From the IMG/VR virus record IMGVR_UViG_3300021226_000025, positions 1-56,046 of that record: 56,046 bases of DNA, one strand, 5' to 3'. The notes beneath the pieces were generated by a model. It was not told the DNA's origin. It ran no database searches and worked only from the letters and a program-made list of their open reading frames with translations. This document shows positions 2,455 to 28,093 of the stretch, piece by piece (positions within the stretch are counted from its first letter, which is position 1; each line of letters begins with the position of its first letter). Both the position numbers and the translations under genes were made by a program. Source of the DNA: a virus.

Positions 2455-2643
2455 ATGAAGCGACTGTTCGCCCTACGTGATAGCCGTGGACAACTTGTCC
2501 GCAATGAGGACAACAAACAACCGATGTACTTTGCTGACAAGGATTCTGCTCGCAGATACCGCAGTAAGTTGACACAAGAAATCAATGTGTACTTCGTAAC
2601 CTACGGCGTTGACCATAAACTTTACAAAGGAACCCACCAATGA
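2455..2643 (+). CDS. Small hypothetical protein
   Basis: 62 residues with an AAGGAG-type ribosome binding site. Highly charged and probably soluble. Its stop overlaps the start of the AAA+ ATPase gene (ATGA), suggesting coupling to the MoxR/VWA trio. No recognisable domain. Confidence 0.6.
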   Translation: MKRLFALRDSRGQLVRNEDNKQPMYFADKDSARRYRSKLTQEINVYFVTYGVDHKLYKGTHQ

Positions 2644-3626
2644 GAGCCACTCTACTGAAGGACACAATCAAGTCCCTGTTTCCCATTCAACGTACCATCT
2701 GTATCGAAGGTAGCCCCGGTGGTGGTAAGACAACCATCGTGCATCAAGTTGCTGAGGAACTCGGCGTACCCTGCATCGAGCGACACATGCCAACCATGCT
2801 TGTCGAGGACTTCGGTATCCTGTTCCCCAATGGCGATGACCAACTGCACTACAAGTTGCCTGATTGGTTTCCTGTCAAGGGCAAAGCACCTGAGAGCGGT
2901 ATCTTGCTGTTCGATGACCGCAACCAAGCCAATGGCGACTTGCAAAAAGTCCTAGCCAACATCTGCCAAGCACGAACCTTACACGGTGTGCCAATGCCTG
3001 ATGGGTGGCAGGTCATCTCCACAGGTAACCGCCAAGCAGACCGAGCAGGTGCTAACCGAGTGCTTGGTCACTTGCGCAATCGTGAGACTGTCTACGAACT
3101 TGACACTCACCTTGACGACTGGACTACATGGGCTATCGACAACAACGTAAAGCCCGAGTTGGTTTCGTTCATTCGCTTCCGCCCTGCTTTGCTTCACGAC
3201 TATGACCCACAACGTGACCAAAACGCAACCCCTCGTTCATGGGTTGAAGGTGTTAGCGATGTGCTCGGTACTGTCCCTGCTGATGCAGAGTTCGAGTCGT
3301 TCAAGGGTGCAGTTGGTGAAGGTGCGGCGGCAGAGTTCGTAGGGTTTCTACGCATCTTCCGCAAGTTGCCCAACCCTGATGCAGTACTGATGAACCCGAC
3401 AACTGCTGACGTACCGAGTGACCCTGCTACGTTGTATGCCCTGTCCGGTGCTATCGCTGAACGTGCAACTGAGAACAACTTTGAGCGTGTTTGTACCTAC
3501 GCTGAACGTATGCCCGCCGACTTCTCGGTGCTTACTGTGTCGTATGCCTCACGCAAGAAGCCTGAGTTAGCCAACACCCAAGCGTTCAACAAGTGGGTCA
3601 TCAACCACCAAGACGTATTGTTTTAA
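2640..3626 (+). CDS. MoxR-like AAA+ ATPase
   Basis: 328 residues. Walker A is GSPGGGKT (residues 24-31), Walker B is ILLFDD (88-93), and the sensor-1-like segment VISTGNR follows about 40 residues later. This matches the MoxR/CobS branch of AAA+ proteins, which usually work as chaperones for a VWA-domain partner. The partner is probably the DUF2201-VWA protein two genes downstream. ATP hydrolysis to remodel or load a metal-dependent partner is the family expectation; the target here is unknown. Confidence 0.85.
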   Translation: MRATLLKDTIKSLFPIQRTICIEGSPGGGKTTIVHQVAEELGVPCIERHMPTMLVEDFGILFPNGDDQLHYKLPDWFPVKGKAPESGILLFDDRNQANGDLQKVLANICQARTLHGVPMPDGWQVISTGNRQADRAGANRVLGHLRNRETVYELDTHLDDWTTWAIDNNVKPELVSFIRFRPALLHDYDPQRDQNATPRSWVEGVSDVLGTVPADAEFESFKGAVGEGAAAEFVGFLRIFRKLPNPDAVLMNPTTADVPSDPATLYALSGAIAERATENNFERVCTYAERMPADFSVLTVSYASRKKPELANTQAFNKWVINHQDVLF

Positions 3627-3634
3627 CCAACCAA

Positions 3635-3652
3635 GAGGGGCAACTGCCCCTC
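3635..3652 (+). terminator. Weak intergenic hairpin within the MoxR/VWA operon
   Basis: GAGGGGC / GCCCCTC with a four-base AACT loop, followed by only gctttta. It lies between the ATPase gene and the next ribosome binding site. It may attenuate transcription or set the ratio of the two proteins. Confidence 0.4.
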
Positions 3653-3674
3653 GCTTTTAGAAGGAGTGACTACT

Positions 3675-4523
3675 ATGAATCTATCTGACCGTGCCCTACT
3701 GGTGCAGTTATCCATTAGCCAATGGACTGCCCGCAAATTTGACAAGAAGGTAACGCAAGATGTTGCCAGTACACATGGGGTAAGTACCAATGCAGGGCGG
3801 TACAACAAAGCACTACTGCCCATGAATGACTTGCTTGACCGAGTGCACAAGAAGTCAACCCTCATCCGCACCAAGTTCTACGACAACACGTTGCCGTGGG
3901 GCATTGAAGGTACGATGATGCTACCCTCTGCCAACTACCTCAAGTTCGTGACTGACTTCCGCAAGGAAAAGGGCGAGTGGCAGTACCTTGTGGATGACTT
4001 TGTGCGTAACTATGGACAGTTGAAACTTGACGCACAGCGTTTGCTCAATGGTATGTACAACGATGCTGACTACCCATCTGACTACGAGATAGCCAACAAG
4101 TTCAAGATGGACATGGCAATCTTCCCTGTACCTGCTACTGACTTCCGTGTGCAAATCGCTTCAGACGAACTGACTCGTATCCAACAAGATGTTGAGGCTA
4201 GGGTGAAGGATGCACAACAACAGGCTATGCAGGAGGTATGGAATAGACTGTACGAACGTGTAAAGAACATGGCAGAGAAACTTGCTGACCCCAAGGCTAT
4301 CTTCCGTGACACATTGGTGGATAACCTGCGTGACCAATGCGACATGTTGACACGCTTGAACTTCACCGATGACCCCAACCTTGAAGCACTACGCTCTGAG
4401 GTTGAAAGCAATTTGCTGAAGCACCCCGATGCTTTGCGCAATGACCCTGACCTACGCCGTGACAAAGCGGCAGAGGCTAAGGCAATCATGGACAAGATGT
4501 CCGTATTCATGAACGCACAATAA
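3675..4523 (+). CDS. Coiled-coil protein of the MoxR/VWA trio (DUF3150-like)
   Basis: 282 residues. The ATG at 3675 is eight bases after AAGGAG; a GTG at 3666 overlaps that site and is rejected. The C-terminal half (about residues 150-270) is long, charged and helical. The position between a MoxR-type ATPase and a VWA protein matches the DUF3150 genes I know from mobile elements with CobS/CobT-like pairs. That family assignment rests on context and general appearance, not on a diagnostic motif. It is probably a scaffold or adaptor for the two partners. Confidence 0.6.
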   Translation: MNLSDRALLVQLSISQWTARKFDKKVTQDVASTHGVSTNAGRYNKALLPMNDLLDRVHKKSTLIRTKFYDNTLPWGIEGTMMLPSANYLKFVTDFRKEKGEWQYLVDDFVRNYGQLKLDAQRLLNGMYNDADYPSDYEIANKFKMDMAIFPVPATDFRVQIASDELTRIQQDVEARVKDAQQQAMQEVWNRLYERVKNMAEKLADPKAIFRDTLVDNLRDQCDMLTRLNFTDDPNLEALRSEVESNLLKHPDALRNDPDLRRDKAAEAKAIMDKMSVFMNAQ

Positions 4524-4533
4524 GGAGAACTAC

Positions 4534-5691
4534 ATGACAACTGTAATGATGCCCGAGGTAGTGGAACACCTACCACCCGCTGACGAAAAGCGTATCGAAC
4601 GACTGCTTGCCAAGGCTAGGACTGCCCTAGTCCTTGAGCATCCGTTCATTGGCAACGTGGCATTGAACCTGCCCTATGTGCCTGACTACACCATCAAGAC
4701 TGCCGCAACCAATGGCAAGAACATCCGATACAACCCCCACTTTATCGACAGTCTCAACGATGAGGAACGCAAGTTCTTGGTGGCACATGAGTGCTTACAC
4801 CCTATGCTTGAACACACATTCCGCCGTGGTGAACGCAACCACAGGGTGTGGAACCAAGCGGCAGATTACGTCATCAACAAGTTGTTGGATGATGAGAAGA
4901 TTGGCAAGATGCCACAAGGCGGACTGCTCGACAACAACATCCACAATGCAGGTGGCGGTACTACCGAGGGTATCTACAACATCCTGCCACAACCTGATGA
5001 CGATGGAAACAACGGACACGGCGACCCATTGGATGACTGCAATGACGGCGGTGACACACCTGCTGACAAGGCGCAACAGGAAGCAGAGTGGAAGGTGCGA
5101 GTAGCACAAGCGGCACAAGCCGCAAAGATGATGGGCAAGATGTCCGCAGGACTTGAACGCCTAGTGGGTGAGATACTCAAGCCCAAAGTTGACTGGCGTG
5201 ATGTGCTTCGTAAGTTCTTGGAGAAGTGCAAGAGTGACCAACGTACATGGTCTAAGTTCAACCGCAGGTTCTTGGCACAAGGTATCTACCTGCCAAGTGT
5301 GAGTGGTGAATCGCTCGGTGAGATAGCCTTTGCAGTTGACTGCTCAGGGTCAATCACACAGGAAGTTATTGACCAATTTGCCGCAGAGATTCGCTCTGCC
5401 AAAGAGGATGGTAACCCTACCAAAATCCATGTGGTGTACTTCGATAGTGAAGTGAGCCACTACGAATCGTATGGTAGAGATGATGACCTTGACATCAAGC
5501 CACACGGCGGTGGTGGTACTGCGTTTAGCCCTGTGTTTGCATACTTCGCAGAGCATGACATCAACCCAGTAGCCTGTGTGTTCTTGACTGACCTGTGTTG
5601 TAGTGACTTCGGTGACCAACCTGACTACCCAGTACTATGGGTATCTACCGATGAGGGTACTGCCCCATTCGGTGAAGTGGTGCTGATGTGA
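4534..5691 (+). CDS. DUF2201-like putative metallopeptidase with VWA domain
   Basis: 385 residues, with AAGGAG upstream. The N-terminal part has a zinc-binding HECLH motif (H85, E86, H89) and the WNQAADYVIN segment typical of DUF2201 proteins. A polar Asp/Gly/Asn-rich linker covers residues 150-180. The C-terminal part is a von Willebrand A-like domain with the MIDAS motif AVDCSGS (D269, S271, S273) and a later GGGGTAF. MoxR-type ATPases act on such VWA proteins, so the trio at 2640-5691 is likely one machine. Proteolysis is possible but unproven. Confidence 0.82.
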   Translation: MTTVMMPEVVEHLPPADEKRIERLLAKARTALVLEHPFIGNVALNLPYVPDYTIKTAATNGKNIRYNPHFIDSLNDEERKFLVAHECLHPMLEHTFRRGERNHRVWNQAADYVINKLLDDEKIGKMPQGGLLDNNIHNAGGGTTEGIYNILPQPDDDGNNGHGDPLDDCNDGGDTPADKAQQEAEWKVRVAQAAQAAKMMGKMSAGLERLVGEILKPKVDWRDVLRKFLEKCKSDQRTWSKFNRRFLAQGIYLPSVSGESLGEIAFAVDCSGSITQEVIDQFAAEIRSAKEDGNPTKIHVVYFDSEVSHYESYGRDDDLDIKPHGGGGTAFSPVFAYFAEHDINPVACVFLTDLCCSDFGDQPDYPVLWVSTDEGTAPFGEVVLM

Positions 5692-5954
5692 TAGCGTTAC
5701 CCGATGGCTATACATTGGGTACATCTAACCGCCAGTCTGTTACCAATGCAAGGCATATGCTCGGTGACAGTTGGCAGGTTACTGTGTATCACAAGGGCTT
5801 GCCTGCTTTTGATATGGCAAAAGAACTACGCATCGACCAATGGTCACCTGTCTACGCAGGGCGATTACATGGCGGTAAGTGGCAACAATACACAGACATT
5901 CACGAACTTGTGCGTGTGATGTGTAGCAAACACAGAATAGGAGTAGGTAAATGA
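5688..5954 (+). CDS. Small hypothetical protein
   Basis: 88 residues from a GTG start that overlaps the stop of the VWA gene (ATGTGA), indicating translational coupling. Soluble, with mixed alpha/beta composition and several Trp/Tyr. No recognised domain. It may be a fourth member of the MoxR/VWA operon. Confidence 0.6.
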   Translation: MIALPDGYTLGTSNRQSVTNARHMLGDSWQVTVYHKGLPAFDMAKELRIDQWSPVYAGRLHGGKWQQYTDIHELVRVMCSKHRIGVGK

Positions 5955-6178
5955 TTACATACGCAGAACTTATTGTGATGTTTGTGTTTGTAGGTATGGG
6001 TGTTTACATCTCATACCTACGGCATGAACTCAAGAAGTCTAATCGTGCAGGGGAAATGCTGACCATGATTCTGCACGATGTCGCAACAGGTCAGGTTGAA
6101 ATCGAAAGGACTGAGAATGGAATCAGTATCCGAAAGGACGATAGACAAGTATCGCCACATCAATGTGGAACACAATGA
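5951..6178 (+). CDS. Small membrane-anchored protein
   Basis: 75 residues, ATG after GGAGTAGGTAA and overlapping the previous stop. Residues 5-25 form one hydrophobic helix, followed by a basic RHELKK stretch and a polar tail. The 3' end overlaps the next gene by about 60 bases in another frame. That next gene has a good start, so the last third here is constrained by two reading frames. Confidence 0.55.
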   Translation: MITYAELIVMFVFVGMGVYISYLRHELKKSNRAGEMLTMILHDVATGQVEIERTENGISIRKDDRQVSPHQCGTQ

Positions 6179-6853: not shown

Positions 6854-7474
6854 ATGGCGACAGTAAGATTCAGCAAAGAGTTACAAGACGCAATCGTTAA
6901 GAACGCAGAGCGTATGTTTGACAAGCAGATGGATGCCGCAAAGGGCAACATCAATGCGACATGGGGTGACCGCATTTATGAAATCATCCATGCCAAGTAC
7001 ATCCCTGCGATGAACGCATTACCGATGCACTTTTTCTCTACCACATGGGAGATGAAGGTATCGAAAATCAACGGCAAAGATGTTGGTGGATTGACTTGCA
7101 AGTTAACCGCCGAGCGACCTGTACCCAATAGCCTACCCAAAGATGTACCTGCCAAGGGTAAAGACTACTATGGCTACGAGTTAGTAGGTCATGAATGGGA
7201 ACAGATAGAGCAAGAAATTGCAGACTACCGAGCAAGTATTGCCGCAGTAGCAGAGAAGAAGAAAGCCTTTGTCGAGTCAGTCAAGAAGGTAATCAACGCA
7301 CATGCAACCCTTGCCCCTGCCCTCAAGATGTGGCAACCCCTGTGGGATTTAATCCCCGAGGAGTACAAGGAACGCCACCGCCAAGTGGTAGAGCGTGAGA
7401 AGAAGGAAGTCAAGGTAGACGTAGACCTGACTGCCCTCACCGCACAAGTTGCTTTCCACAAAATGACACGATAA
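6854..7474 (+). CDS. Hypothetical protein, possibly Nmad5-like
   Basis: 206 residues with GGAGAGTGAC before the ATG. The long helical middle and the C-terminal pattern (a run leading to LAPALKMWQPLWDLIPEE) resemble phage proteins I associate with the putative nucleotide-modification-associated Nmad5 family. That resemblance is weak and no catalytic motif is obvious. DNA-base modification or its regulation is only a hypothesis. Confidence 0.45.
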   Translation: MATVRFSKELQDAIVKNAERMFDKQMDAAKGNINATWGDRIYEIIHAKYIPAMNALPMHFFSTTWEMKVSKINGKDVGGLTCKLTAERPVPNSLPKDVPAKGKDYYGYELVGHEWEQIEQEIADYRASIAAVAEKKKAFVESVKKVINAHATLAPALKMWQPLWDLIPEEYKERHRQVVEREKKEVKVDVDLTALTAQVAFHKMTR

Positions 7475-7483
7475 GGAATTGAT

Positions 7484-8395
7484 ATGCGCACAGATAAACT
7501 TTCATACAACGATGTTGCCGAGTGGTTTACTAAGGCACGTAACCCCGATTCAGGTAGACCAGTCATGTCATGGGCGAGGATGTTTAAGGTTGGTGATACA
7601 TACGAACTGCGACATGGCAGTACCAAGGTAGGTGTGTTCACACCTGACAACAAGTTTACCTTTACCTTGTCCACACAACAGGCAAGAAGTTCGAGTGTTA
7701 CCCTAAGCCAAGCACTACAAAGAACCATCCCCTTTGTGTGGTGCAGAGTTGGTATGGGTAAGTATCGGATTAAACCTACGCCAAAGTTGGAAGAATACAA
7801 AGCCAAGAACCCTGACGCATACGCATGGCATTACTTCTCAGAGCAAGAAGGTTATGAGTTGTTCGATGGTTTGTGTTTCGACTTGAATACTTACGAGCCA
7901 GTAAATGCACGACCAAAGATGAGCGATACCATTGACCCTGTAAAGCGTAAGGAATGGCTAGGTTCATTACGTAAATTCAAACGAGCGGTGAAGGTACGAG
8001 CACGACTAGGTGTACTTGATTCTCTGATACAAGAAGTTGCACAGGAACGTAGCAAACATCGTTCCCGATATGATTGGGAAATGCCCGACTGGAATACTGA
8101 CACATGGCAGGATATGCTATACACTTCAATAAAGAATTCAGAGTGTTCGACCGAGTTACTGAAGGGTATAGTCAAGTCAGTTTCCACAGGCTATTACAAG
8201 TCTAGTATCTCTGTCGATGATGTACTTAAAGAGTGCGACAAGATATGCACCAATTACAGCGTAGAGATACGCCGTAAGTTCGGTGTGTTTGACGGAGATA
8301 AAAGTGAAGTGCCCATCATGCAACATACGAATGAAATGCCTAGACACACGGTGGAACAAGACCGTGAATCAGACAAGGCGCAAATGGAAATGTAA
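7484..8395 (+). CDS. Hypothetical protein
   Basis: 303 residues with AAGGAATTGAT before the ATG. The N-terminal third looks beta-rich (VGDTYELRHGSTKVGVF). The middle is basic (LRKFKRAVKVRARLG) and the end is charged and Cys-containing. I do not recognise the family. It lies between the possible Nmad5-like gene and a zinc-ribbon gene. Its last 92 bases overlap the latter in another frame. Confidence 0.6.
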   Translation: MRTDKLSYNDVAEWFTKARNPDSGRPVMSWARMFKVGDTYELRHGSTKVGVFTPDNKFTFTLSTQQARSSSVTLSQALQRTIPFVWCRVGMGKYRIKPTPKLEEYKAKNPDAYAWHYFSEQEGYELFDGLCFDLNTYEPVNARPKMSDTIDPVKRKEWLGSLRKFKRAVKVRARLGVLDSLIQEVAQERSKHRSRYDWEMPDWNTDTWQDMLYTSIKNSECSTELLKGIVKSVSTGYYKSSISVDDVLKECDKICTNYSVEIRRKFGVFDGDKSEVPIMQHTNEMPRHTVEQDRESDKAQMEM

Positions 8396-17090: not shown

Positions 17091-19961
17091 ATGGACACGC
17101 TGAGTTTTTTGCAGCGAGTACTACCAAGTGAAGGACTGTATTGCATTGCTAGTTTTGAGGACGGAAATCCAAAACCACGGCACGGTTACTTTGACTCAGT
17201 AGAGAAACTCGCAAAGGTTTCACTAGCCTTAAATAGTAGGGGGCAGAACACATACTACGCAATCTCCACCTTCTTGACGAAGGAAGGTAGACGCAAGCAG
17301 GACAACGTGCAACTGACCAAGGTGTTGGCGATTGATGTTGACTGTGGCATTGGGAAGAACGGAAAGCCCAAACCTTTTGCCGATGCAAGCGAAGGTGCTC
17401 GGGCACTGGTTAAGTTTGTGCAAGCAGTTGGACTTCCGATGCCGATGATTGTTTCGTCAGGCAATGGTCTGCATACATATTGGGTGATGACTGATGCCGT
17501 GACTCCGGCCCAGTGGAAGCCACTGGCGAACGCACTTAAAGCGGCGTGTATCCAACATGGGTTCACACCGGACATTGGCGTAACAGGTGACAACGCACGA
17601 ATACTGCGACCCATTGGATGCACCAACCCAAAGGGCGGCAAGATAGCCACCTTGTTGCGGGATGCTCCTGATGTGGAGTACGACACACTTTGGCAAGTCC
17701 TGTCACCGTTTGCCTCAGGCTCATCCTATGAGCCACCCGAACAACAGACACGTACCAGTACGTTGTTGGATGCTATGGCGGTTAAGCACGAGTACGCACC
17801 TGCTAATGCGGACAAGATTGCGGAGAAGTGCCAGCAGATTAAATGGGGGACTGAGAACCAAGAAGATGTTTCAGAACCCTTTTGGTGGAAGTTGATGGGC
17901 GTAGCCGCCTACTGCAAAGACCCGATTGAAACGGCTATCAAGTGGAGTGAGAAGTACAGTAAGTTCAACCAACAGGAAGTTGTTAGCAAGGTTGAGAACT
18001 GGAAGGACGGCGCTACTGGCGCAACATGGTGCGAGAAGTTTTCGCTTGAGCGGCCTGACGGCTGTAAGGGTTGTAAGTTTAAGGACAAGATTAAAAGCCC
18101 GATTGCTTTGGGCACACAGTTTGCCGAGGTCAAATCAATGGCGGCATTGGCTGACCCGATTGCGGCACAAGTTCCATTGCCACGTGGGTTCAAGAGAACC
18201 ACGGATGGTATGAAGTATGTGATTGACGACACAGATGTTGATGTGTGTAAGTTCGACCTGTACCCGGTGGGCTATGGAAAAGATGAAGGACTTGGCTACG
18301 AGGTTGTTCGCTACATGTGGAATAGACCGCACGTTGGGTGGACAGAACTTGTACTGCGTCAAGCCTACCTGACTGATGGAAGTCGGGAGTTTTCCACTGC
18401 GATTGCTGACCAAGGCATCGTGCTTTTTAACAAGAACCAAACGAACTTTTTCCAAATGCTACTACGCTCATACATGGAGGAATTGAAGCAGAAACGAGGA
18501 TTGACTAATCTGTATTCGTCGATGGGTTGGAAGGACGACTACACACAATTTGTTCTTGGTAACACCCTGCTTCGCCGTGACTCCAACGGCTCTGTCACAG
18601 AAGAATCTGTGAACCTTGCATCATCCATCAACAAGGTGGGTGAGGATATGTACGCCTGTAAAGGCAACCTGCAAGAGTGGGTGAACTTCACCAGTATCTT
18701 GCAGAAGGGTGACCTCAAACTGCACAAGTTCCTGATTGGGTTTGCCTTTGCTACCCCACTACTCAAGGTCAGTGGACTCAAAGGGTTAACCCTATCTTTG
18801 TATGGCAAGACAGGCGGCGGGAAAACCCTAGGTCAGTTGATGATGCAGTCAGTGTGGGGCAACCCTGACTTACTCCACTTCGGTGGCAAGTTCACACAGA
18901 ACGGATTGTTCAGCCGCTTGGCAATGCACGGCAATCTGCCCATGACGGTAGACGAAATCACCATGCTCGACAAAGAGGAAGCGGGTGACATGCTCTACTG
19001 GATTTCACAGGGCAAGGACAAGGCTCGTTTGAACCGCAACGCCGAGGAGAAAGCAGTCAAGGAGTGGCAGACCACGATGACTGTATCGACCAACGAATCG
19101 TTCAGCAGTATGTTGTACGCAGGTGGTCACGCTACGGACGCGCAGTTGGCACGACTGATTGAATTCAACGTGCAACCTAACCCACTGTTCAATGACACCA
19201 GTAATGTGGGGCGCAAGATTCATGCGTTCCTCATGAACAACTACGGTGTGGCAGGGCGTGAGTTCATGAAACATGTCATGGGCTTGGGCGTAGATGTCAT
19301 ACGCAATATGTTGGAGCACAGTATCAGTGAGTTCCCCAAGAAGTACGGTGTTCAGTTCACAGGTGACGAACGCTTTTGGGAACTGGGAGTTATCCTGTCA
19401 GACCTCGGCAACCAACTTGCTACCGAATACGGACTCATCAAGTACGAGTACCGTGACGCAACTGTTTGGGCACTGCAAGAACTGGGCGCAATGAAAACCA
19501 CAGTGGCGGCAAACAAGGCTACATCATTCATGATACTGGGCGAGTTCGTCAAAGCACACATGGATTCCACTGTGACTGTCATGCACACCCCCGGACAGAA
19601 GCCTATGCGGGATAACAACCGACCATATGTTAATGATGTGATTGTCCGTTACGACCTGCATCGCAAGACGTATGACGGCATCTTTGAAAGCGGCTCTGTT
19701 CTGATTGAGCGAACCAAGTTGCGCCGTTGGCTATCCCAACGAGGTCATGACTACAAAGCGTTCTTGCGTGAGTTCGAGCAGGAAGGAATCATCGTGACGC
19801 CCAAGTCTGAGAAGGCGTACTTGGGTAAAGATATTGGCTTGAAGATTCCGCAGTGCTACGTTGTCGGCATCAACCTCAACCACCCTGAACTACAAGGGGT
19901 CTTGGATGATGCACAACAACCTATCGCTAACCTGATGGTTGGTCAGTTGCAAGCCGTTTAG
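17091..19961 (+). CDS. Primase-helicase (AEP-like primase plus P-loop helicase)
   Basis: 956 residues from the ATG at 17091, with CGGGGA upstream. The N-terminal archaeo-eukaryotic-type primase signatures are AIDVDCG (about 80-86), SSGNGLHTYW (about 122-131) and RILRPIGCTN (about 171-180). A Cys cluster near 320-340 (WCEKF to CKGCKFK) may bind zinc. The C-terminal DUF927-like helicase has Walker A GKTGGGKT (about 572-579) and Walker B-like TVDEIT (about 620). One polypeptide would prime and unwind for the family A polymerase. It is the last gene of the early arm, and its stop overlaps that of the convergent late arm. Confidence 0.9.
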   Translation: MDTLSFLQRVLPSEGLYCIASFEDGNPKPRHGYFDSVEKLAKVSLALNSRGQNTYYAISTFLTKEGRRKQDNVQLTKVLAIDVDCGIGKNGKPKPFADASEGARALVKFVQAVGLPMPMIVSSGNGLHTYWVMTDAVTPAQWKPLANALKAACIQHGFTPDIGVTGDNARILRPIGCTNPKGGKIATLLRDAPDVEYDTLWQVLSPFASGSSYEPPEQQTRTSTLLDAMAVKHEYAPANADKIAEKCQQIKWGTENQEDVSEPFWWKLMGVAAYCKDPIETAIKWSEKYSKFNQQEVVSKVENWKDGATGATWCEKFSLERPDGCKGCKFKDKIKSPIALGTQFAEVKSMAALADPIAAQVPLPRGFKRTTDGMKYVIDDTDVDVCKFDLYPVGYGKDEGLGYEVVRYMWNRPHVGWTELVLRQAYLTDGSREFSTAIADQGIVLFNKNQTNFFQMLLRSYMEELKQKRGLTNLYSSMGWKDDYTQFVLGNTLLRRDSNGSVTEESVNLASSINKVGEDMYACKGNLQEWVNFTSILQKGDLKLHKFLIGFAFATPLLKVSGLKGLTLSLYGKTGGGKTLGQLMMQSVWGNPDLLHFGGKFTQNGLFSRLAMHGNLPMTVDEITMLDKEEAGDMLYWISQGKDKARLNRNAEEKAVKEWQTTMTVSTNESFSSMLYAGGHATDAQLARLIEFNVQPNPLFNDTSNVGRKIHAFLMNNYGVAGREFMKHVMGLGVDVIRNMLEHSISEFPKKYGVQFTGDERFWELGVILSDLGNQLATEYGLIKYEYRDATVWALQELGAMKTTVAANKATSFMILGEFVKAHMDSTVTVMHTPGQKPMRDNNRPYVNDVIVRYDLHRKTYDGIFESGSVLIERTKLRRWLSQRGHDYKAFLREFEQEGIIVTPKSEKAYLGKDIGLKIPQCYVVGINLNHPELQGVLDDAQQPIANLMVGQLQAV

Positions 19962-22900
19962 TCGGGGATGCCCGCAAGGGTTTCCTCGTCTACACCATAG
20001 AGGCGAAGCATGTCTTTCGCTTCCATGCGACCGCTCTTAGCCGAGGACTTGAGTGCACGGATAGCCAATGGTTTGCTTGCTTCTCGGTAGGCTTGTGACA
20101 AGCCACGGTCAAAGTTGCGCATCTCAAGGCGAGTGCCTTTGGTGTCCTCGTTCCAGTCAGACACAAACTTCTTAACCTGAGCCAAGCGTTCAGTGTCGTT
20201 CTCCAGTCTTGCCGCCACACCTTCACGGGTGAGTTCGGTTTTAATCATGGACATGTAGGCTTGTTCCTGTCTGTCTGCTGACATCCAGTCCATCTGCATT
20301 TGCGCACGACTTGGGTAGAAGCCCATTGCCTTACCAAGCAACTCCCATGTGGAAACATTCTTGGCGACCACATAGCCTTTGTTGTCTAGGATTGCGCCAG
20401 TGTCTGCGTACTTCCACGCATCACCCACGTTCTTAATGGCTCGGATAGGGCTATCTCTCAACAACTCTATGGGTGACTGACGACCAGTCGCCACAGCAGG
20501 CAGCGTACTTGCACCCCAGTTGAGCGCACCCACGATGAATGAGGTAGGTGCACCTGCTAAGTTCTCAACTTCACGCAGGATTTCATCCTTAGTCGCTGAG
20601 GGTTTGAGGATGCCAGTTCCGGGGATGATGTCGCCAAGACCCAAGCGGTTAGAGAACGACCAACCAGTTACATGGTCAAGCAAACCACGCATCATGATTG
20701 GGTTAATTTCAGCGGCAAGTTCCGCACCAAATACATCGGCAGTCAAACGAGCAAACTCTTTCTCGACTGAACCAATCTTTAAGCCAAGGCGCTGGCAGAG
20801 TGCGTCAAGAATGTCCAACAAGTCGTCAGCACCCGGTAGTCCACGTACCCCAGACAGGAGTAGCAACGAACCTATCATGATGATTCTGCCTTCGTAGTTC
20901 ATATTTTTGAGCAGTTGAATCATCATGATTGGGTACTGCTTGTACATGTAGATGAAGGCTTGCACACCACCACGGAAGAACGCAGGGCGGTTGTACTGAG
21001 CGTAGTCACCTTGCGTAGCGTCCAGTGCTTTGGTGGACATCTCACGTGCTTTTACGTCCGCAATGGATGGGTCACCATGCGTCGCCATCTGCCGCTCATA
21101 CTCACCACGATATGCTGCTAGGAGTGTGACACGGCGGTTGACCTGCTCGGAGTACGAGAAGGGAAACATCCACGTTTGAATAAATTTTTGGACAGTTGGG
21201 TTGCCAGTAATCTTGCGACCCTTACTGGTTCCGGTCATAGCGTTAAACGATGCGGCATCCAAGCGTTGCTGTTCGGTCATGTCACGTAGGAAACGCAACT
21301 CACTACCAGTCAGTCCATCCTTGGTGTACTTCGCACCATTCTTTTCCTCTACCTCAAACTCTTTCAGACGAGCATCAAGCCATGCTAAGTCAGCATACTT
21401 GGGGTTTGCCGTGTTCATCAAGAACTGGGTCAGCAACTTACCTGCCTTACCTGCGCCCAAGCCAACACCGAAGCCAGTCTTAGGGTTGAACGAGGAGAGG
21501 TACGCCCATGAGTTTGTCGGCAGTGAAAGCACTTGCGTGATGCCAGTTGCAATCGAGCCACCTAGTTGGAATATAGCCGCCCATGTACGAGTAGCCACAC
21601 TCCACTGATTGTTAGACCAAATGTCATCAGCGTGAATAATGTCTCCAGTTGAGTCCATCCATGCAAGCATGGACTTGGCACGCTCGTTGTAGTACTGACC
21701 ACGTTCGATACGGCGACCGTCTTTGGTGTACTCAACTACGTTGTCTTGGAAGAACTTCTCTTGGAAGTATTCACGAGCCGCAACTTCTTTGGCCTCCCCC
21801 GTGGCAGATTCCCACTTGGCTTTCAATGTTGCAAGACGTTCAGGGTTGTCACTCCAGTTGTCAGTATCGTCAAGCACTTCGTCAAAGCGGTGACGGTATT
21901 CTTTGTTGGCTGCAACATAGGCTTGCTGCTCCAAGAACGCAGACGAACTACGGACAATATCTTTATCCCAGCCGGGTACACCTGCACGCTGCAAGTTGGA
22001 GCGAGCACGGGAGTTCTGACCTGAGACTTTCTGCACAAGAACTTGGCGCACCTCAGGCGACAACTGGATACCCAAGCGACTGAGCGAGTACATGACCTCA
22101 TCGTAGTGGAGTACGTCCACCAAGTCAGGAGTCTGACGGGTAACTGATGCAACGGCTTCGAGGCGAACCTTTTGCAGATTGCCTTTCTCGTCACGCATGT
22201 CGTACTCACCATTGAGCATGGCGTTCAGTTCTTCTTGGTACTGCTCAGCATCTTTCTGTGTGCCTGTCTTGTAGAAAGCCAGTGAGTCTTGTTGACCATC
22301 AGCCAACTTAACTGGGTATCTAGTGCCGTCCTTATCGGTTGTGTATGCCTGCACACGGACTTGCCACTCGCCTTCACGAGTAAGCGGTACGTAAGCACCT
22401 GCGATTGAACGCTTGGCGTACAACTGGTCGTCATTGATAGAAGCCGCAAACATTGAGCGTTCTTCGATGCGATGCTCCAGTGCCCAGATAGAACTGTTTT
22501 TGATTGGGTCTACCTCAGGGTCAATCTGCGTCTGCAACTTAGACCGCATACTCTTAACAAGCGTCTCTACCTGCGTGGGGGTATACCCCGGCATCATACC
22601 TTTGAGGTCGTTCAATGCTAGGTCGGAGTAAAACGCACGGGCGAACTTCATACGCAACCACTCAAGGGCATCCTTATTGGAAGTATCCAACAACTTGAGG
22701 CGGTTGCCTTGGAACTCTGCACCTTTCATGCGCATCTCATCAAACATGCCAGTGGCATCCTCAATAAATCTACGCTCAACATCCGTAAGTGGTGTAGACT
22801 TCTTAAATGCACCCCGCACCCCTGCGGAGATGGCCCTCTTTTGCTCGTAGACTGCGCCAATGTACTTGCTTCGCAGAACGTCAATATGGCTCATTGCCAT

Positions 22901-25900
22901 AGTTTCTACGAACTCGTTATACATCTTCCACTCAACGCTATCTTCCGTGAGGTCTTTGAACCACTCGGGGGTAGGAGCCATGTTGGGCACTTCATACATT
23001 GGCTCTTTCATACGCTTGGTGTACAAGCGTTTGGTCTGCTCAATGTCTTGACTGAATTTCTTCTCGTCTCGCTTACGCTCAAGCGCATATTCAGCCTTCG
23101 TATCCTCATCAGTTTCAGCGGCAATCTTTTTATCGACACGAGCAAAGGCTGCGTCACGATATTTTTCAATCTTGGCAATGACTGCATCTCGCTCGGTCGC
23201 AAGTTCTTGACGGTATTCATCAGTCATCGGTACTTCTTTTGTACCCTGTTGAACTTGGAAGCCTTTCTTAAAATCCTCCACAGACAAACGGCCTGCATCG
23301 ACCAGTGCTCGGAACGCATCAGGGTTTACATCCAAGATACCGGAGTCTGGGTCAAAAAACACAGGGTTGTCCATCTTGTCCAACTGTGAGTCGGAGATGG
23401 AGTTCATCTTAAAGAGCGAACCGTACGCAAGTAACTCACCCGCACGAACTTGTTTCTCCATGTCTGCGCCTTCACCTAGGCCCAGAAACTTGGCTTTGTG
23501 AGCAGTCGCCGTACCATCCGCATACTTCTGCTTGTACTGGTTCTGCTTTGCACCTTTGAGTTGGAGCAGTTCAAAAATCTTGGAGAAACCTTTGCTCTTG
23601 CGGGCTAGGTTATCCATCGTCTGAATACCATCAAGGACAGACTGCGCTACGTTTGTCACGTTAGACATTACGCCTTTGCCTTGCTTAACGGCTTCGGCTG
23701 CACGATTCTTAGCGTCAATGATGTCGCTTACAGCACGAGACAGACCACCATGAATAGCAGCATTACGGTTGAGGTTACCCATTGCGTAAGTCAGCGCACC
23801 CTGTGGAGCCATTGCAGCAAAGCGCAACACTTCCACATTGGACTGGTCGTTCAACAACGACTGGTCAATTTCTTTGAACAAGCCTGACAGGTTGACTTCG
23901 CTGCGGCCTGTGCCTTGACGCACGTACTTGCGTGATAGTCCAATGAGATAGCGAGCCGCATCGTCGTTGAACTTCAAGCCTATCTTGTTGAGTTGGTCTT
24001 TGACCCAGTTCCAAAAACGCAAGATGGTGTTGGTATCCACGGCAGCGGCACGGTCAGCCAGTACTTCTTCAACCGCCTCAAGGAACGGGATACCCCGCCC
24101 TGCTGCGTACACCTCTGCTGCCTGCGTCAGTTGTGCATCTGAATCAGCAACAAGTTTGAGGATGGCGTTCAGTGCACGGTCGTTGAATAGACCACGAAAG
24201 CCAACGTGACCAAGGGTCTCGTGAGCAATAATGAAGCGGGCTTGTTGTTCTGACTCGATGAAGTCTGCAAACAGAACTACGTTGTTACCCCATGCCATAC
24301 CTGCGGCATTTACGTGCTCGATGTCACCAGCCTTGCGTGCCTTGGCAGCAGCGGCAAACAACGAGGGGTTAGCCTTTTGCATGTCAGCCAGATTGGAGAA
24401 CACGTGGACAGTAGGCTTACGGGCAAACTTAGACACCACACGTGCAGCAAACAGACGCAGTGGGCCAGCCTTCATAGGTTCAGTTGGGCGACCGTCTACA
24501 CGGTAGAACTCTAGGTCACCACGGTCACTACGTGCATTGTCGTACAGTGGGTCATACTGGAGGTCATCCAGTGTGGTCTGTGTTTCTTCATCCTCAAGGT
24601 CACGCAATGCCTGTCTAGCATCCTTGTGCTTCTTGACAAATTCTTCTTTAGACATCTTGCCTTCTTCTTTGGTTGCCAACACAAAGTTACTTGTACCGGG
24701 AACTTGCACGATGATAGGTTCACCGTCGGAAGTAAAGAAGTCTTTAATGCGTCCACGACCGCTGACTTCAAAGTTGTCGTTGTCTACATCCACGTAGCGG
24801 ATAAGCGCAGCACGGCGTAACTGGGCTTTGTCCAGATAGCCATTGCGGTTGTTGATGAGGTCAGCCATGCGAATCTCACCAAGGTTCTCCGTAGGAGTGT
24901 TGACTGGCTTATTGACCACGGCTTCTTGTTTAGTCTTGGCTCCGGGCTGACGAACCAACGCTTGAACATTGGCATCATTCAACAACCCGTGGTCAGCCAA
25001 CAAGGAGTACAAGCGAGACTTAGGCCCGATGCTCTCCTCGTTGAGTGCCACTTCCCTTAGTGCGGCTATGAAGTCCCGCTGGGGAATACCTCCGTCTGCC
25101 AAGAACCTTTCGGATGCAGTACGGAGATATGCTTTGACGTTTGAAGTCAATGCGTAGGCACTGACGATTTCAAACAGAGCCTCTGCGTAAGCAGCAGGAC
25201 TCTTTGTAGTTTCGATGGTCTCGATAGCCATATCGAGTTCTTGGTTGGCAAACTTAGTTTCTTCGCTTGCCTCTTGCACGCCTTTCTTTGTGGTGCTCTC
25301 CACCACAGCAGGCTGCTGAGTTGTACCAAGAAGTTGTCCGACCATTGCCGCCAGACCACTTGGGCCTTTCTGCAACTTAGCGGCTTTGGCAGGAGTAGCC
25401 TTAGCCTTTGCCTCGGACTTTTTTTCTGCACCCTTGGCAAGTTTCTTTTTGCCACCCTTCGGAGGAGTCGGTTCAGTCGGCTTAACTGGAGCCGCAGCCG
25501 TGGTGACTGGTGCGTTAGTTACGGCTTCTTGGGTTTGCTTCTTCCCGCGCTGGAGAGACTTGCCGCCACCGCCTGTTTGAGTGCCGCCGCCTTTGACTTG
25601 GGTCGTGGGCTGGTTCCCAGTTTGCCCCCCGCCTTGTACTCGTCCATTATCTTCTTGACGTTGGCTGACACTACCTTGTTGCTGCTTCCCTTTTTGAGTG
25701 GCATTTGCTTTTCCTTTCTTGAGCACTGCGGCTTTCGCCTTAGTTGCGGTTACTGCCGTAACAGGCGCACCTGTCGGCGGAATCTGTACAGCACCCTGCT
25801 GCACAGTCGGAGTAGGCACGGCTTGGCGTGTACCCGCACTCTTGAGTGCTGCCACGGTAGGCTGACCTTGTTGCGTGAACAATGACAACTGACCTGCACG

Positions 25901-28093
25901 TTGGAACTGTCCGGGGGTAGGAGTACCTTGCACAACTGGAGCGGGTGCAGGCAGTTGCGTGCCGACACCACGGCGCAAACCTTCAGCACGTGAAGGCACT
26001 GGCGCTTGTCTGCGGTTGAACAAGGGCATCTGCTGCGGCTGCCGTACAGGCAACGGACGCATAGGAAGTTGTTGCTGTGTGACTGGCTGTTGCTGCTGGG
26101 CCGCAAAGTCCAACTGTCGTTGATTCTGAGCCTGCACCGCCAGACGTTGCATGTCGGCTTCACGCTGTGCTTGTTCCTGAGCCTGACGCTGTGCGTAGGC
26201 TTCTTGGATTTGGCGTTGCTGAATAGCCGCCTGCAACTGGTCAGCCATTGCAGGATTGAACGCAGGTTGCTGGTTCGTAAACCCAACACCACTTGGAGCA
26301 GGAGGTGCGAACTGCAATGCCATTTGCCGTGGGTCAACAGGGACTTGAGGCGAAGGCAATGCCAAGCGGTCAGACGGAGGAGCAGTTACGGCTTGTTGTT
26401 CGTACTGCTGGGTCTGAGGATTCCATACCATGCGGGGAGCAAGTTCGCCCGTTTGCTGGCTACGTTGCTGTAACTCACCAATGGTTGCACCGCCAAGGTC
26501 AAGCACACCTTGTGCACCACCGAACTGACCGGGGGCTACCTGCCCTGTAAAGATACGGTCAGTAGGTACGGAAGGACGGACTGCGCCATCAGCGCCAGCC
26601 ACAAAATCAGGGCGTGCACCCATACCACCGACTTGGGTTGGGCCACCTACGGGAGTACCCGGTGGAGGTGGAATGATTGTCAACGCAGTGGATGGAGCAG
26701 GAGGCTCAGCAGTCTGGCTTGGATTCAGCAGGTTGGTAGGCTCTTTGGTAATCGGGCCACGGCGTAAGTTAGCCGCTGCACCAAGCACACCGCCAGTACC
26801 AAAACCTGCTGCAAATGATTCGTAAAGACGTTTCTGTATTTCAGGCGCAGAAAAGTCCTGCCCTGTGTTGGCAATCAGCAAAGCCTCTTGCCCAAGTTCA
26901 GTCGTACCTTCAGCAGTACCACCAGCAACAAAGCCTTTACCTGCACGCTTGAGTAGTTCTGCACCACGCAGACCTTGTGTGCCTAGGAAGGTTTCGCCTT
27001 GAATATCACGGAGGGCTTTGCCGCCCTGACGAGCCAGACCGCCTGTGCCAAACAAGCGAGAGGCAAGCAGGAACTCAGGCAAAGATTCAAGTGCTGCATA
27101 CGGAACAGCGGAAGCCAATGCGGAAAGACGATTGTCTTGCCCTTGGTCACGTTGCTCACCATAGATGTCAGCCACACCCGTGGCGTAGTTCTGCGCCGTA
27201 GTGAAGATGGTTGCACCAGCAATACCAGCAGCCTCACGCAGTATCTTGGTTTCAGCAGCGTTAAGTACTTCACCTGCGGCTTTCTTTTTGATAGCCGCAA
27301 GAACAGATTGTTTGAAGGTTTCTTTACCAGCCAGACCAGCGAGGGCTGCACCACCACCTGCAAGTGGGCCACCAGCGGCTGTACCTGCAAAGAAGCCTGC
27401 GGCGGCAGTAGCAACAGACTCCAGAATATTTGGGCCTTGTTGGGCTACGGTTGCGACCAGCCAGTCAATAGCAGTGTTAGCGTCCTTGACATCGGAGAAC
27501 TCACGAATGTAAGGCGAGGACTTCTGTAAATCACCACGAATGGTGTCAGTGCCTACCTGAGCATCGACGATGCGCTGACCAGTTTCTTCTGCACCTAAGA
27601 ACTGCAAGCCTCGACCCGCAAGCATTTGCATATTGTCCAGACCAATGCCAAAGTTCTTCTTGGCAAGTTTGCCTAGGCCGGGGTTCTTGATAGTGCTGAG
27701 GTATTGTCCGTAGGAGTTAGGGTCAAGTTGAATCCAGTCGCCGCCCTGTGGCATACCGACACCGGGCATACTCAAGCGGGCTTCGCTTTGCAACGCCAGT
27801 GCATCATCATCAGCAGCAAATTGTGCGCCGTTTACAAACAGAGACTTGGTAGACGGGCTGTATGCCACAACCGGAGGACGTTTAATCTCCGGCATGGTGA
27901 ACTGGCTCTGCTTGACCAACTCCTGCCCAAGAACTGCCGTGTCCACTTGGGAAGGCATCATGTTCTCTGTTCCGCTACGTGGCATCTGCGAGAAACCAGC
28001 ATAGGGATTGAGCACAGTGTTTAAGTCTGCGCCCATGCTACCTAGGTTGACATCTGCAAATGACAGTCCAGCGGGAGTTGCAGGATTCGCCAT
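19958..28093 (-). CDS. Giant polyvalent internal virion protein
   Basis: 2711 residues, the largest protein of the window and last in the late operon, where T7-like phages encode gp16-type ejected proteins. The N-terminal ~230 residues are globular, with a Gly/Ala-rich membrane-active segment near 224-255. Residues ~490-930 are Gln/Pro/Lys-rich and low in complexity. A metalloprotease-like HETLGH motif sits at 1291-1296. Long helical regions cover roughly 1400-2200. The C-terminal ~330 residues (from YKQYP at 2384) resemble the large-polyvalent-protein-associated domain LPD38. Likely packaged in the capsid and injected with DNA. Confidence 0.8.
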   Translation of the reverse strand: MANPATPAGLSFADVNLGSMGADLNTVLNPYAGFSQMPRSGTENMMPSQVDTAVLGQELVKQSQFTMPEIKRPPVVAYSPSTKSLFVNGAQFAADDDALALQSEARLSMPGVGMPQGGDWIQLDPNSYGQYLSTIKNPGLGKLAKKNFGIGLDNMQMLAGRGLQFLGAEETGQRIVDAQVGTDTIRGDLQKSSPYIREFSDVKDANTAIDWLVATVAQQGPNILESVATAAAGFFAGTAAGGPLAGGGAALAGLAGKETFKQSVLAAIKKKAAGEVLNAAETKILREAAGIAGATIFTTAQNYATGVADIYGEQRDQGQDNRLSALASAVPYAALESLPEFLLASRLFGTGGLARQGGKALRDIQGETFLGTQGLRGAELLKRAGKGFVAGGTAEGTTELGQEALLIANTGQDFSAPEIQKRLYESFAAGFGTGGVLGAAANLRRGPITKEPTNLLNPSQTAEPPAPSTALTIIPPPPGTPVGGPTQVGGMGARPDFVAGADGAVRPSVPTDRIFTGQVAPGQFGGAQGVLDLGGATIGELQQRSQQTGELAPRMVWNPQTQQYEQQAVTAPPSDRLALPSPQVPVDPRQMALQFAPPAPSGVGFTNQQPAFNPAMADQLQAAIQQRQIQEAYAQRQAQEQAQREADMQRLAVQAQNQRQLDFAAQQQQPVTQQQLPMRPLPVRQPQQMPLFNRRQAPVPSRAEGLRRGVGTQLPAPAPVVQGTPTPGQFQRAGQLSLFTQQGQPTVAALKSAGTRQAVPTPTVQQGAVQIPPTGAPVTAVTATKAKAAVLKKGKANATQKGKQQQGSVSQRQEDNGRVQGGGQTGNQPTTQVKGGGTQTGGGGKSLQRGKKQTQEAVTNAPVTTAAAPVKPTEPTPPKGGKKKLAKGAEKKSEAKAKATPAKAAKLQKGPSGLAAMVGQLLGTTQQPAVVESTTKKGVQEASEETKFANQELDMAIETIETTKSPAAYAEALFEIVSAYALTSNVKAYLRTASERFLADGGIPQRDFIAALREVALNEESIGPKSRLYSLLADHGLLNDANVQALVRQPGAKTKQEAVVNKPVNTPTENLGEIRMADLINNRNGYLDKAQLRRAALIRYVDVDNDNFEVSGRGRIKDFFTSDGEPIIVQVPGTSNFVLATKEEGKMSKEEFVKKHKDARQALRDLEDEETQTTLDDLQYDPLYDNARSDRGDLEFYRVDGRPTEPMKAGPLRLFAARVVSKFARKPTVHVFSNLADMQKANPSLFAAAAKARKAGDIEHVNAAGMAWGNNVVLFADFIESEQQARFIIAHETLGHVGFRGLFNDRALNAILKLVADSDAQLTQAAEVYAAGRGIPFLEAVEEVLADRAAAVDTNTILRFWNWVKDQLNKIGLKFNDDAARYLIGLSRKYVRQGTGRSEVNLSGLFKEIDQSLLNDQSNVEVLRFAAMAPQGALTYAMGNLNRNAAIHGGLSRAVSDIIDAKNRAAEAVKQGKGVMSNVTNVAQSVLDGIQTMDNLARKSKGFSKIFELLQLKGAKQNQYKQKYADGTATAHKAKFLGLGEGADMEKQVRAGELLAYGSLFKMNSISDSQLDKMDNPVFFDPDSGILDVNPDAFRALVDAGRLSVEDFKKGFQVQQGTKEVPMTDEYRQELATERDAVIAKIEKYRDAAFARVDKKIAAETDEDTKAEYALERKRDEKKFSQDIEQTKRLYTKRMKEPMYEVPNMAPTPEWFKDLTEDSVEWKMYNEFVETMAMSHIDVLRSKYIGAVYEQKRAISAGVRGAFKKSTPLTDVERRFIEDATGMFDEMRMKGAEFQGNRLKLLDTSNKDALEWLRMKFARAFYSDLALNDLKGMMPGYTPTQVETLVKSMRSKLQTQIDPEVDPIKNSSIWALEHRIEERSMFAASINDDQLYAKRSIAGAYVPLTREGEWQVRVQAYTTDKDGTRYPVKLADGQQDSLAFYKTGTQKDAEQYQEELNAMLNGEYDMRDEKGNLQKVRLEAVASVTRQTPDLVDVLHYDEVMYSLSRLGIQLSPEVRQVLVQKVSGQNSRARSNLQRAGVPGWDKDIVRSSSAFLEQQAYVAANKEYRHRFDEVLDDTDNWSDNPERLATLKAKWESATGEAKEVAAREYFQEKFFQDNVVEYTKDGRRIERGQYYNERAKSMLAWMDSTGDIIHADDIWSNNQWSVATRTWAAIFQLGGSIATGITQVLSLPTNSWAYLSSFNPKTGFGVGLGAGKAGKLLTQFLMNTANPKYADLAWLDARLKEFEVEEKNGAKYTKDGLTGSELRFLRDMTEQQRLDAASFNAMTGTSKGRKITGNPTVQKFIQTWMFPFSYSEQVNRRVTLLAAYRGEYERQMATHGDPSIADVKAREMSTKALDATQGDYAQYNRPAFFRGGVQAFIYMYKQYPIMMIQLLKNMNYEGRIIMIGSLLLLSGVRGLPGADDLLDILDALCQRLGLKIGSVEKEFARLTADVFGAELAAEINPIMMRGLLDHVTGWSFSNRLGLGDIIPGTGILKPSATKDEILREVENLAGAPTSFIVGALNWGASTLPAVATGRQSPIELLRDSPIRAIKNVGDAWKYADTGAILDNKGYVVAKNVSTWELLGKAMGFYPSRAQMQMDWMSADRQEQAYMSMIKTELTREGVAARLENDTERLAQVKKFVSDWNEDTKGTRLEMRNFDRGLSQAYREASKPLAIRALKSSAKSGRMEAKDMLRLYGVDEETLAGIPD

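Follow-up and report, generated by a model that had tools for sequence, protein, structure and literature searches.

A MoxR/midasin-type AAA+ ATPase, a DUF3150-like helical protein and a zincin-VWA protein encoded together in the replication arm of a phage genome

We analysed a stretch of 56,046 nucleotides from the viral record IMGVR_UViG_3300021226_000025 (hereafter the window), and all coordinates refer to positions within it. Three co-directional open reading frames occupy positions 2640–5691, as the preliminary description of this DNA had set out, and the same trio recurs in hundreds of contigs. That description was also right about the kinds of protein encoded, about the HECLH motif and the MIDAS site, and about the phage setting of the trio. 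The features of the locus are the following.

2640–3626, + strand: gene 1, AAA+ ATPase of the MoxR/midasin (AAA_5) clade, 328 residues, homologue of N4 gp24
3635–3652, + strand: RNA hairpin GAGGGGC-AACT-GCCCCTC in the spacer between genes 1 and 2, recognised by folding energy and stem conservation
3675–4523, + strand: gene 2, helical third component, probably a divergent DUF3150-type protein, of 282 residues (the open reading frame opens with GTG at 3666)
4534–5691, + strand: gene 3, zincin domain (PF13203) fused to a VWA/MIDAS domain (PF09967), 385 residues, homologue of N4 gp25

The dN/dS values of the trio genes relative to close relatives range from 0.04 to 0.18, so these genes are under purifying selection; the low values and the recurrence in hundreds of contigs identify them as real genes. 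Gene 2 most likely starts at the ATG at 3675 rather than at the GTG at 3666, because an AAGGAG motif closely precedes this ATG and the corresponding methionine (Met4 in the long form) hardly varies. The proposal that the trio constitutes one coupled operon fits genes 2 and 3, which are 10 nt apart, and gene 3 also overlaps the following open reading frame (gene 4); genes 1 and 2 are less tightly coupled, being separated by 48 nt containing the stable hairpin. This spacer folds at −16.5 kcal/mol (z = −2.2 versus dinucleotide shuffles), and the stem is kept in relatives with different stem sequences (e.g., L040 and L258). We rejected an ordinary terminator at this position, since the conserved hairpin mostly lacks a T-run. 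In some relatives the spacer between genes 1 and 2 extends to 124–250 nt and is strongly structured.

The gene 1 product scored above the cut-off for the generic AAA family PF00004 (23.3 bits versus 21.2) and below it for AAA_5 (19.7 versus 22) and PF07726 (AAA_3; 14.4 versus 27). Over its full length it is homologous to phrog_1297 (E = 3.6e-68). The best single-domain PDB matches include midasin AAA5 (35.7 bits) and MoxR 2r44 (34.6 bits), and p97/Rix7-type domains score similarly. Because these matches score alike, the accurate name for this protein is “AAA+ of the MoxR/midasin type”. The earlier designation as a MoxR-like ATPase is apt for the Walker A motif (GSPGGGKT), sensor 1 (N130), arginine finger (R148) and sensor 2 (R199), all of which are canonical, but not for the sub-threshold PF07726 score or for the Walker B motif (LLFDD), which ends in Asp-Asp rather than Asp-Glu. 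Residues G27, G29 and K30 of Walker A, N130, R148 and R199 are invariant among the homologues. The Asp-Asp form of Walker B, present in 92 distinct homologues, is fixed in the window lineage and occurs in the ATPases of L157, L221, L262 and L263, whereas the canonical Asp-Glu form occurs in Synechococcus phage MinM2, in Schitoviridae, jumbo and Thermus phages, and in L226 and L233. An aspartate in this position, known also from DnaA, is associated with slow hydrolysis, and by analogy the gene 1 ATPase may turn over ATP slowly or not at all.

The gene 3 product was matched with high scores by the putative metallopeptidase family PF13203 (164.4 bits versus a cut-off of 23.2) and the VWA-like family PF09967 (83.7 versus 26.4), and shows full-length homology to phrog_1314 (E = 8e-106). 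Its zincin residues are H85, E86, H89 and H94, and its MIDAS residues are D269, S271, S273, T329 and D353. The four zincin residues, D111, N115 and all five MIDAS residues are identical in every phage homologue compared at this step, 82 of them close and 8 remote; across a wider set of 28 homologues the histidine ligands and the MIDAS are invariant and the glutamate nearly so. With the HExxHxxxxH motif complete in the aligned phage homologues, we consider the gene 3 product a putative peptidase. In the predicted model of this protein (pLDDT 79), the zincin part matches the selecase zincin, and the VWA part matches VWA domains such as those of NorD and MDN1-MIDAS. Within the window lineage the C-terminus hardly varies through to its final residue, as would be the case for a docking tail. 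Two aligned actinobacterial chromosomal DUF2201 homologues (L290 and L291), each encoded beside a similar ATPase, carry HHxxH in place of HExxH; this substitution suggests that peptidase chemistry was lost and the metal site kept, and hence that the zincin fold can persist without such chemistry. The label “HNH endonuclease”, attached to phrog_1314 and to many phage records of the zincin-VWA protein (e.g., NC_023581.1, NC_031063.1 and NC_041917.1), was rejected on the basis of the domain matches and the model, and looks like a propagated misannotation.

The middle protein of the trio, encoded by gene 2, has no significant match in Pfam, PF11348 (DUF3150) included. Its homologue in L157, 34% identical, passes the PF11348 threshold (35.4 versus 24.9), and its predicted fold matches a phage “DUF3150” protein (E = 4e-15). 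Through these two transitive links the gene 2 product can be placed tentatively as a divergent DUF3150 relative. The model consists mostly of long helices with few strands and is of moderate confidence (pLDDT 74, pTM 0.46); structure and PDB searches returned no PDB match, and we found no paper on DUF3150 in the open-access literature searched. Among approximately 50,000 annotated phage records, we identified gene 2 relatives of the same length only in three cyanobacterial phage records, in one of which the protein is annotated as DUF3150. A relative is, in addition, encoded in at least 369 IMG/VR stretches.

To describe the arrangement of the trio we ran profiles for each of its proteins over 280 loci, many of which come from the same contig and overlap. 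In 244 of these the order was gene 1–gene 2–gene 3. Another 23 contained genes 2 and 3 with gene 2 at the left edge of the available DNA, and L280 contained genes 1 and 2 at the right edge. Two loci, one in a Tannerella MAG (L157) and the other in a 165-kb virus contig (L221), have the order gene 1–gene 3–gene 2, which indicates that the trio was co-retained through rearrangement. Gene 2 thus occurs in two gene orders, and it does so in several unrelated mobile elements; in no sufficiently long locus of the 280 was it found without genes 1 and 3. The pair of genes 1 and 3 without gene 2 is, on the other hand, common in Schitoviridae, jumbo, Thermus and Rhizobium phages. Since gene 2 is never alone while the pair often lacks it, gene 2 depends on the pair and the pair does not depend on gene 2. 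We rejected a hidden middle protein in Schitoviridae or Rhizobium phages, as profile comparison with the neighbouring genes in LIT1 and TM27B found none.

We also considered a widespread bacterial trio and rejected it, as only two contigs emerged when bacterial and archaeal genomes were scanned once with the alignment of the middle protein: an actinobacterial MAG contig with a phage-like gene order and the Tannerella MAG contig, where the trio is an apparent insert. In the latter (L157, 2220–8861) the trio and a phage-like helicase gene lie beside apparently chromosomal genes (e.g., a sugar kinase), and the region looks like an integrated element. A DUF3150 search of 198 genomes from the phylum of the Tannerella contig matched this contig only. 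On bacterial chromosomes the pair is sporadic: PF13203 matches were present in 7 of 100 genomes of one phylum, one of them (G001) through the phage-like contig; a gene 1-like ATPase adjoins every PF13203 locus in these seven genomes, and gene 2 is found only in the G001 locus.

The pair itself is not new. It is homologous both to gp24/gp25 of N4 and to the “MoxR + metallopeptidase-vWA” pair that was reported in 2021 from jumbo phages of group 2.2 (PMC7824862), and by tblastn we found the zincin-VWA protein in 537 phage records and the ATPase in 667. Both gp24 and gp25 are core genes of N4-like phages (Schitoviridae) and are listed without function (PMC4193335, PMC7650795). The pair is not named in the CRISPRi-ART main text. 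It is also present in Thermus phage phiFa, Bacillus phage AR9 and Rhizobium phage TM27B. The suggestion that the trio represents an undescribed system therefore fails for the pair, already reported in these three publications, and stands for the middle protein, which, as far as the open-access literature searched goes, appears undescribed. What appears new here is the obligate third subunit and the fixed Asp-Asp Walker B.

In the window, the genes between 156 and 19961 are on the + strand and include those for DNA polymerase, exonuclease, helicase and primase, with the trio among them. The terminase, portal, major head protein (capsid), internal virion protein and tail fibre are encoded on the − strand. 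The trio therefore belongs to the replication arm, and the recognised structural genes are on the other strand. Two small proteins encoded at 156–434 and 1491–1754 are apparent paralogues of each other based on cross-matches, and a protein of 2711 residues (19961–28093, − strand) matches phrog_11358 only over residues 2013–2660. The pair is likewise near replication genes in N4, LIT1, Vibrio D520, Rhizobium TM27B and Thermus phiFa; the counter-example is Serratia jumbo phage BF, in which it is beside virion genes. The two genes directly behind the trio (5688–6178), encoding an 88-residue and a membrane-anchored protein, had been put forward as possible parts of the system, a role that we discount given that, of 60 trio loci, only 11 and 18, respectively, retain them. 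Two further genes (6854–7474, 206 residues; 7484–8395, 303 residues) are retained by 55 of these 60 loci, all from the window lineage. Because they are absent from remote trio loci, they were rejected as system parts and represent lineage synteny.

Based on the domains present, the intact catalytic residues, the constant company of gene 2 with the pair and the replication-arm position, we propose, with a probability of about one half, that the trio is an ATP-driven remodelling, and probably processing, machine with its own adaptor, directed at a non-virion target in genome replication or takeover. The AAA+ protein would form a ring, on which the VWA domain of the gene 3 product would dock in the manner of NorD on NorQ and of the MIDAS domain in midasin. 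The metal of the MIDAS would bind an acidic residue on the client, and force would pass through the VWA domain to the client held at this site, on the model of NorQD (PMC13036017) and midasin. The fused zincin domain would either cut the client or bind it through zinc, and the DUF3150-like helical protein would serve as an obligate adaptor or scaffold coupling ring and client. All three proteins would be made together with the replication genes. Four observations count against this proposal: the Asp-Asp Walker B, with which ATP turnover may be slow or absent, the HHxxH motif of the chromosomal homologues, the position of the BF pair beside virion genes, and the moderate-confidence gene 2 model with its lack of a PDB match.

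The alternative that survives best is a virion-assembly chaperone with peptidase, in which the AAA+/VWA pair folds or processes head or tail proteins. This role has already been proposed in print for the jumbo-phage pair, with the MoxR-vWA that serves tail assembly in Acidianus two-tailed virus as the analogue (PMC7824862), and it agrees with the virion neighbours of the pair in phage BF and with the mapping of RPP1 virion proteins near the gp24/gp25 homologues of that phage (PMC4193335). However, those homologues are absent among the RPP1 virion proteins in the rows listed, and gp24/gp25 are middle rather than late genes in N4 (PMC4193335). Moreover, an early promoter is annotated directly upstream of the pair in the AR9 record, whereas 41 of 43 AR9 virion proteins are products of late genes (PMC5312081). 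Together with the placement of the window trio in the replication arm, opposite in strand to all recognised structural genes, these points leave virion assembly unlikely in our estimation.

We assign a slightly lower likelihood to the idea of the preliminary description, a machine for host takeover, anti-defence or superinfection exclusion, whose complex would remove or inactivate a host protein. The early location of the trio is compatible with such a role, as is the proximity to rII genes: in L221 (888–11273) an rIIA-like and an rIIB-like gene flank the trio, and the N4 pair lies about 3 kb upstream of rIIA/rIIB. The complete peptidase motif and strong selection also suggest a cleaved target. 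On the other hand, the only matches of the trio to defence-related families in a PADLOC search were to generic P-loops, and conservation across unrelated phages and hosts at dN/dS 0.04–0.18 fits a conserved client better than a fast arms race.

We hold equally tentatively a more specific form of the remodelling machine, namely a new AAA+ protease that would take its client through the MIDAS and the helical adaptor, act on it through an AAA+ ring with slow, switch-like ATPase activity, and cut it with the MIDAS-fused zincin, the client being either a protein of the phage replication complex or a host protein targeted in the same phase. Least probable by far is a chaperone for metal-cofactor insertion (like NorQD, CbbQO or CobST) maturing a phage or host metalloenzyme, as characterised MoxR-VWA pairs often do (PMC13036017) and as the metal site of the zincin domain might suggest, since the trio loci examined show no evident gene for a metalloenzyme client and the trio neighbours differ between lineages.

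These results bear on gp24 and gp25, which come from the small core-gene set of N4-like phages and have no function listed to date. Phages with the pair include those of Proteobacteria, Bacillus and Thermus, those with the trio include cyanobacterial ones, and in some phages the pair appears to belong to a larger machine with an obligate third component. This component and the completely preserved residues of the peptidase and MIDAS sites offer concrete mutants and a concrete complex for testing. If true, a MIDAS-guided AAA+ protease would be a new type of protein-processing machine.

Among known systems, the trio most directly recalls gp24/gp25 of N4 and other Schitoviridae (phrog_1297/phrog_1314), with which it shares homologous proteins, their order, the early/middle region and the catalytic residues. 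As is typical of that pair, the ATPase gene is closely followed by the zincin-VWA gene outside the late structural block, here with one gene between them. N4 and the Schitoviridae checked differ in having no middle helical protein, and the Schitoviridae ATPases checked have an Asp-Glu Walker B. The group 2.2 jumbo-phage pair has the same two domain architectures, but no third component was described for it, and virion assembly is the role put forward (Iyer et al, 2021; PMC7824862). All three homologues are present in Synechococcus phage MinM2 and Planktothrix phages Pag-Yong1 and Pra-JY27, where the middle protein of MinM2, annotated as DUF3150, is 28% identical to the gene 2 product. In contrast to the window, these phages have small genes inserted between the three and an Asp-Glu Walker B; their trio is annotated gene by gene, and we found no description of it as a system. 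The MoxR-vWA ternary conflict systems (VMAP, iSTAND, FtsH, beta-propeller; Kaur et al, 2020; PMC7159879) similarly combine a ring ATPase, a vWA protein and a third protein, although this third component is different and the systems belong to multicellular bacteria rather than phages. No effector domain of these systems was found in the trio, and the gene 2 product had no significant Pfam match and none in the defence library. NorQ-NorD and midasin (Mdn1/Rea1) lack a zincin domain and have defined clients (cNOR and pre-60S factors, respectively), but in both, as would be the case here, an AAA+ protein of the same clade works with a VWA/MIDAS domain.
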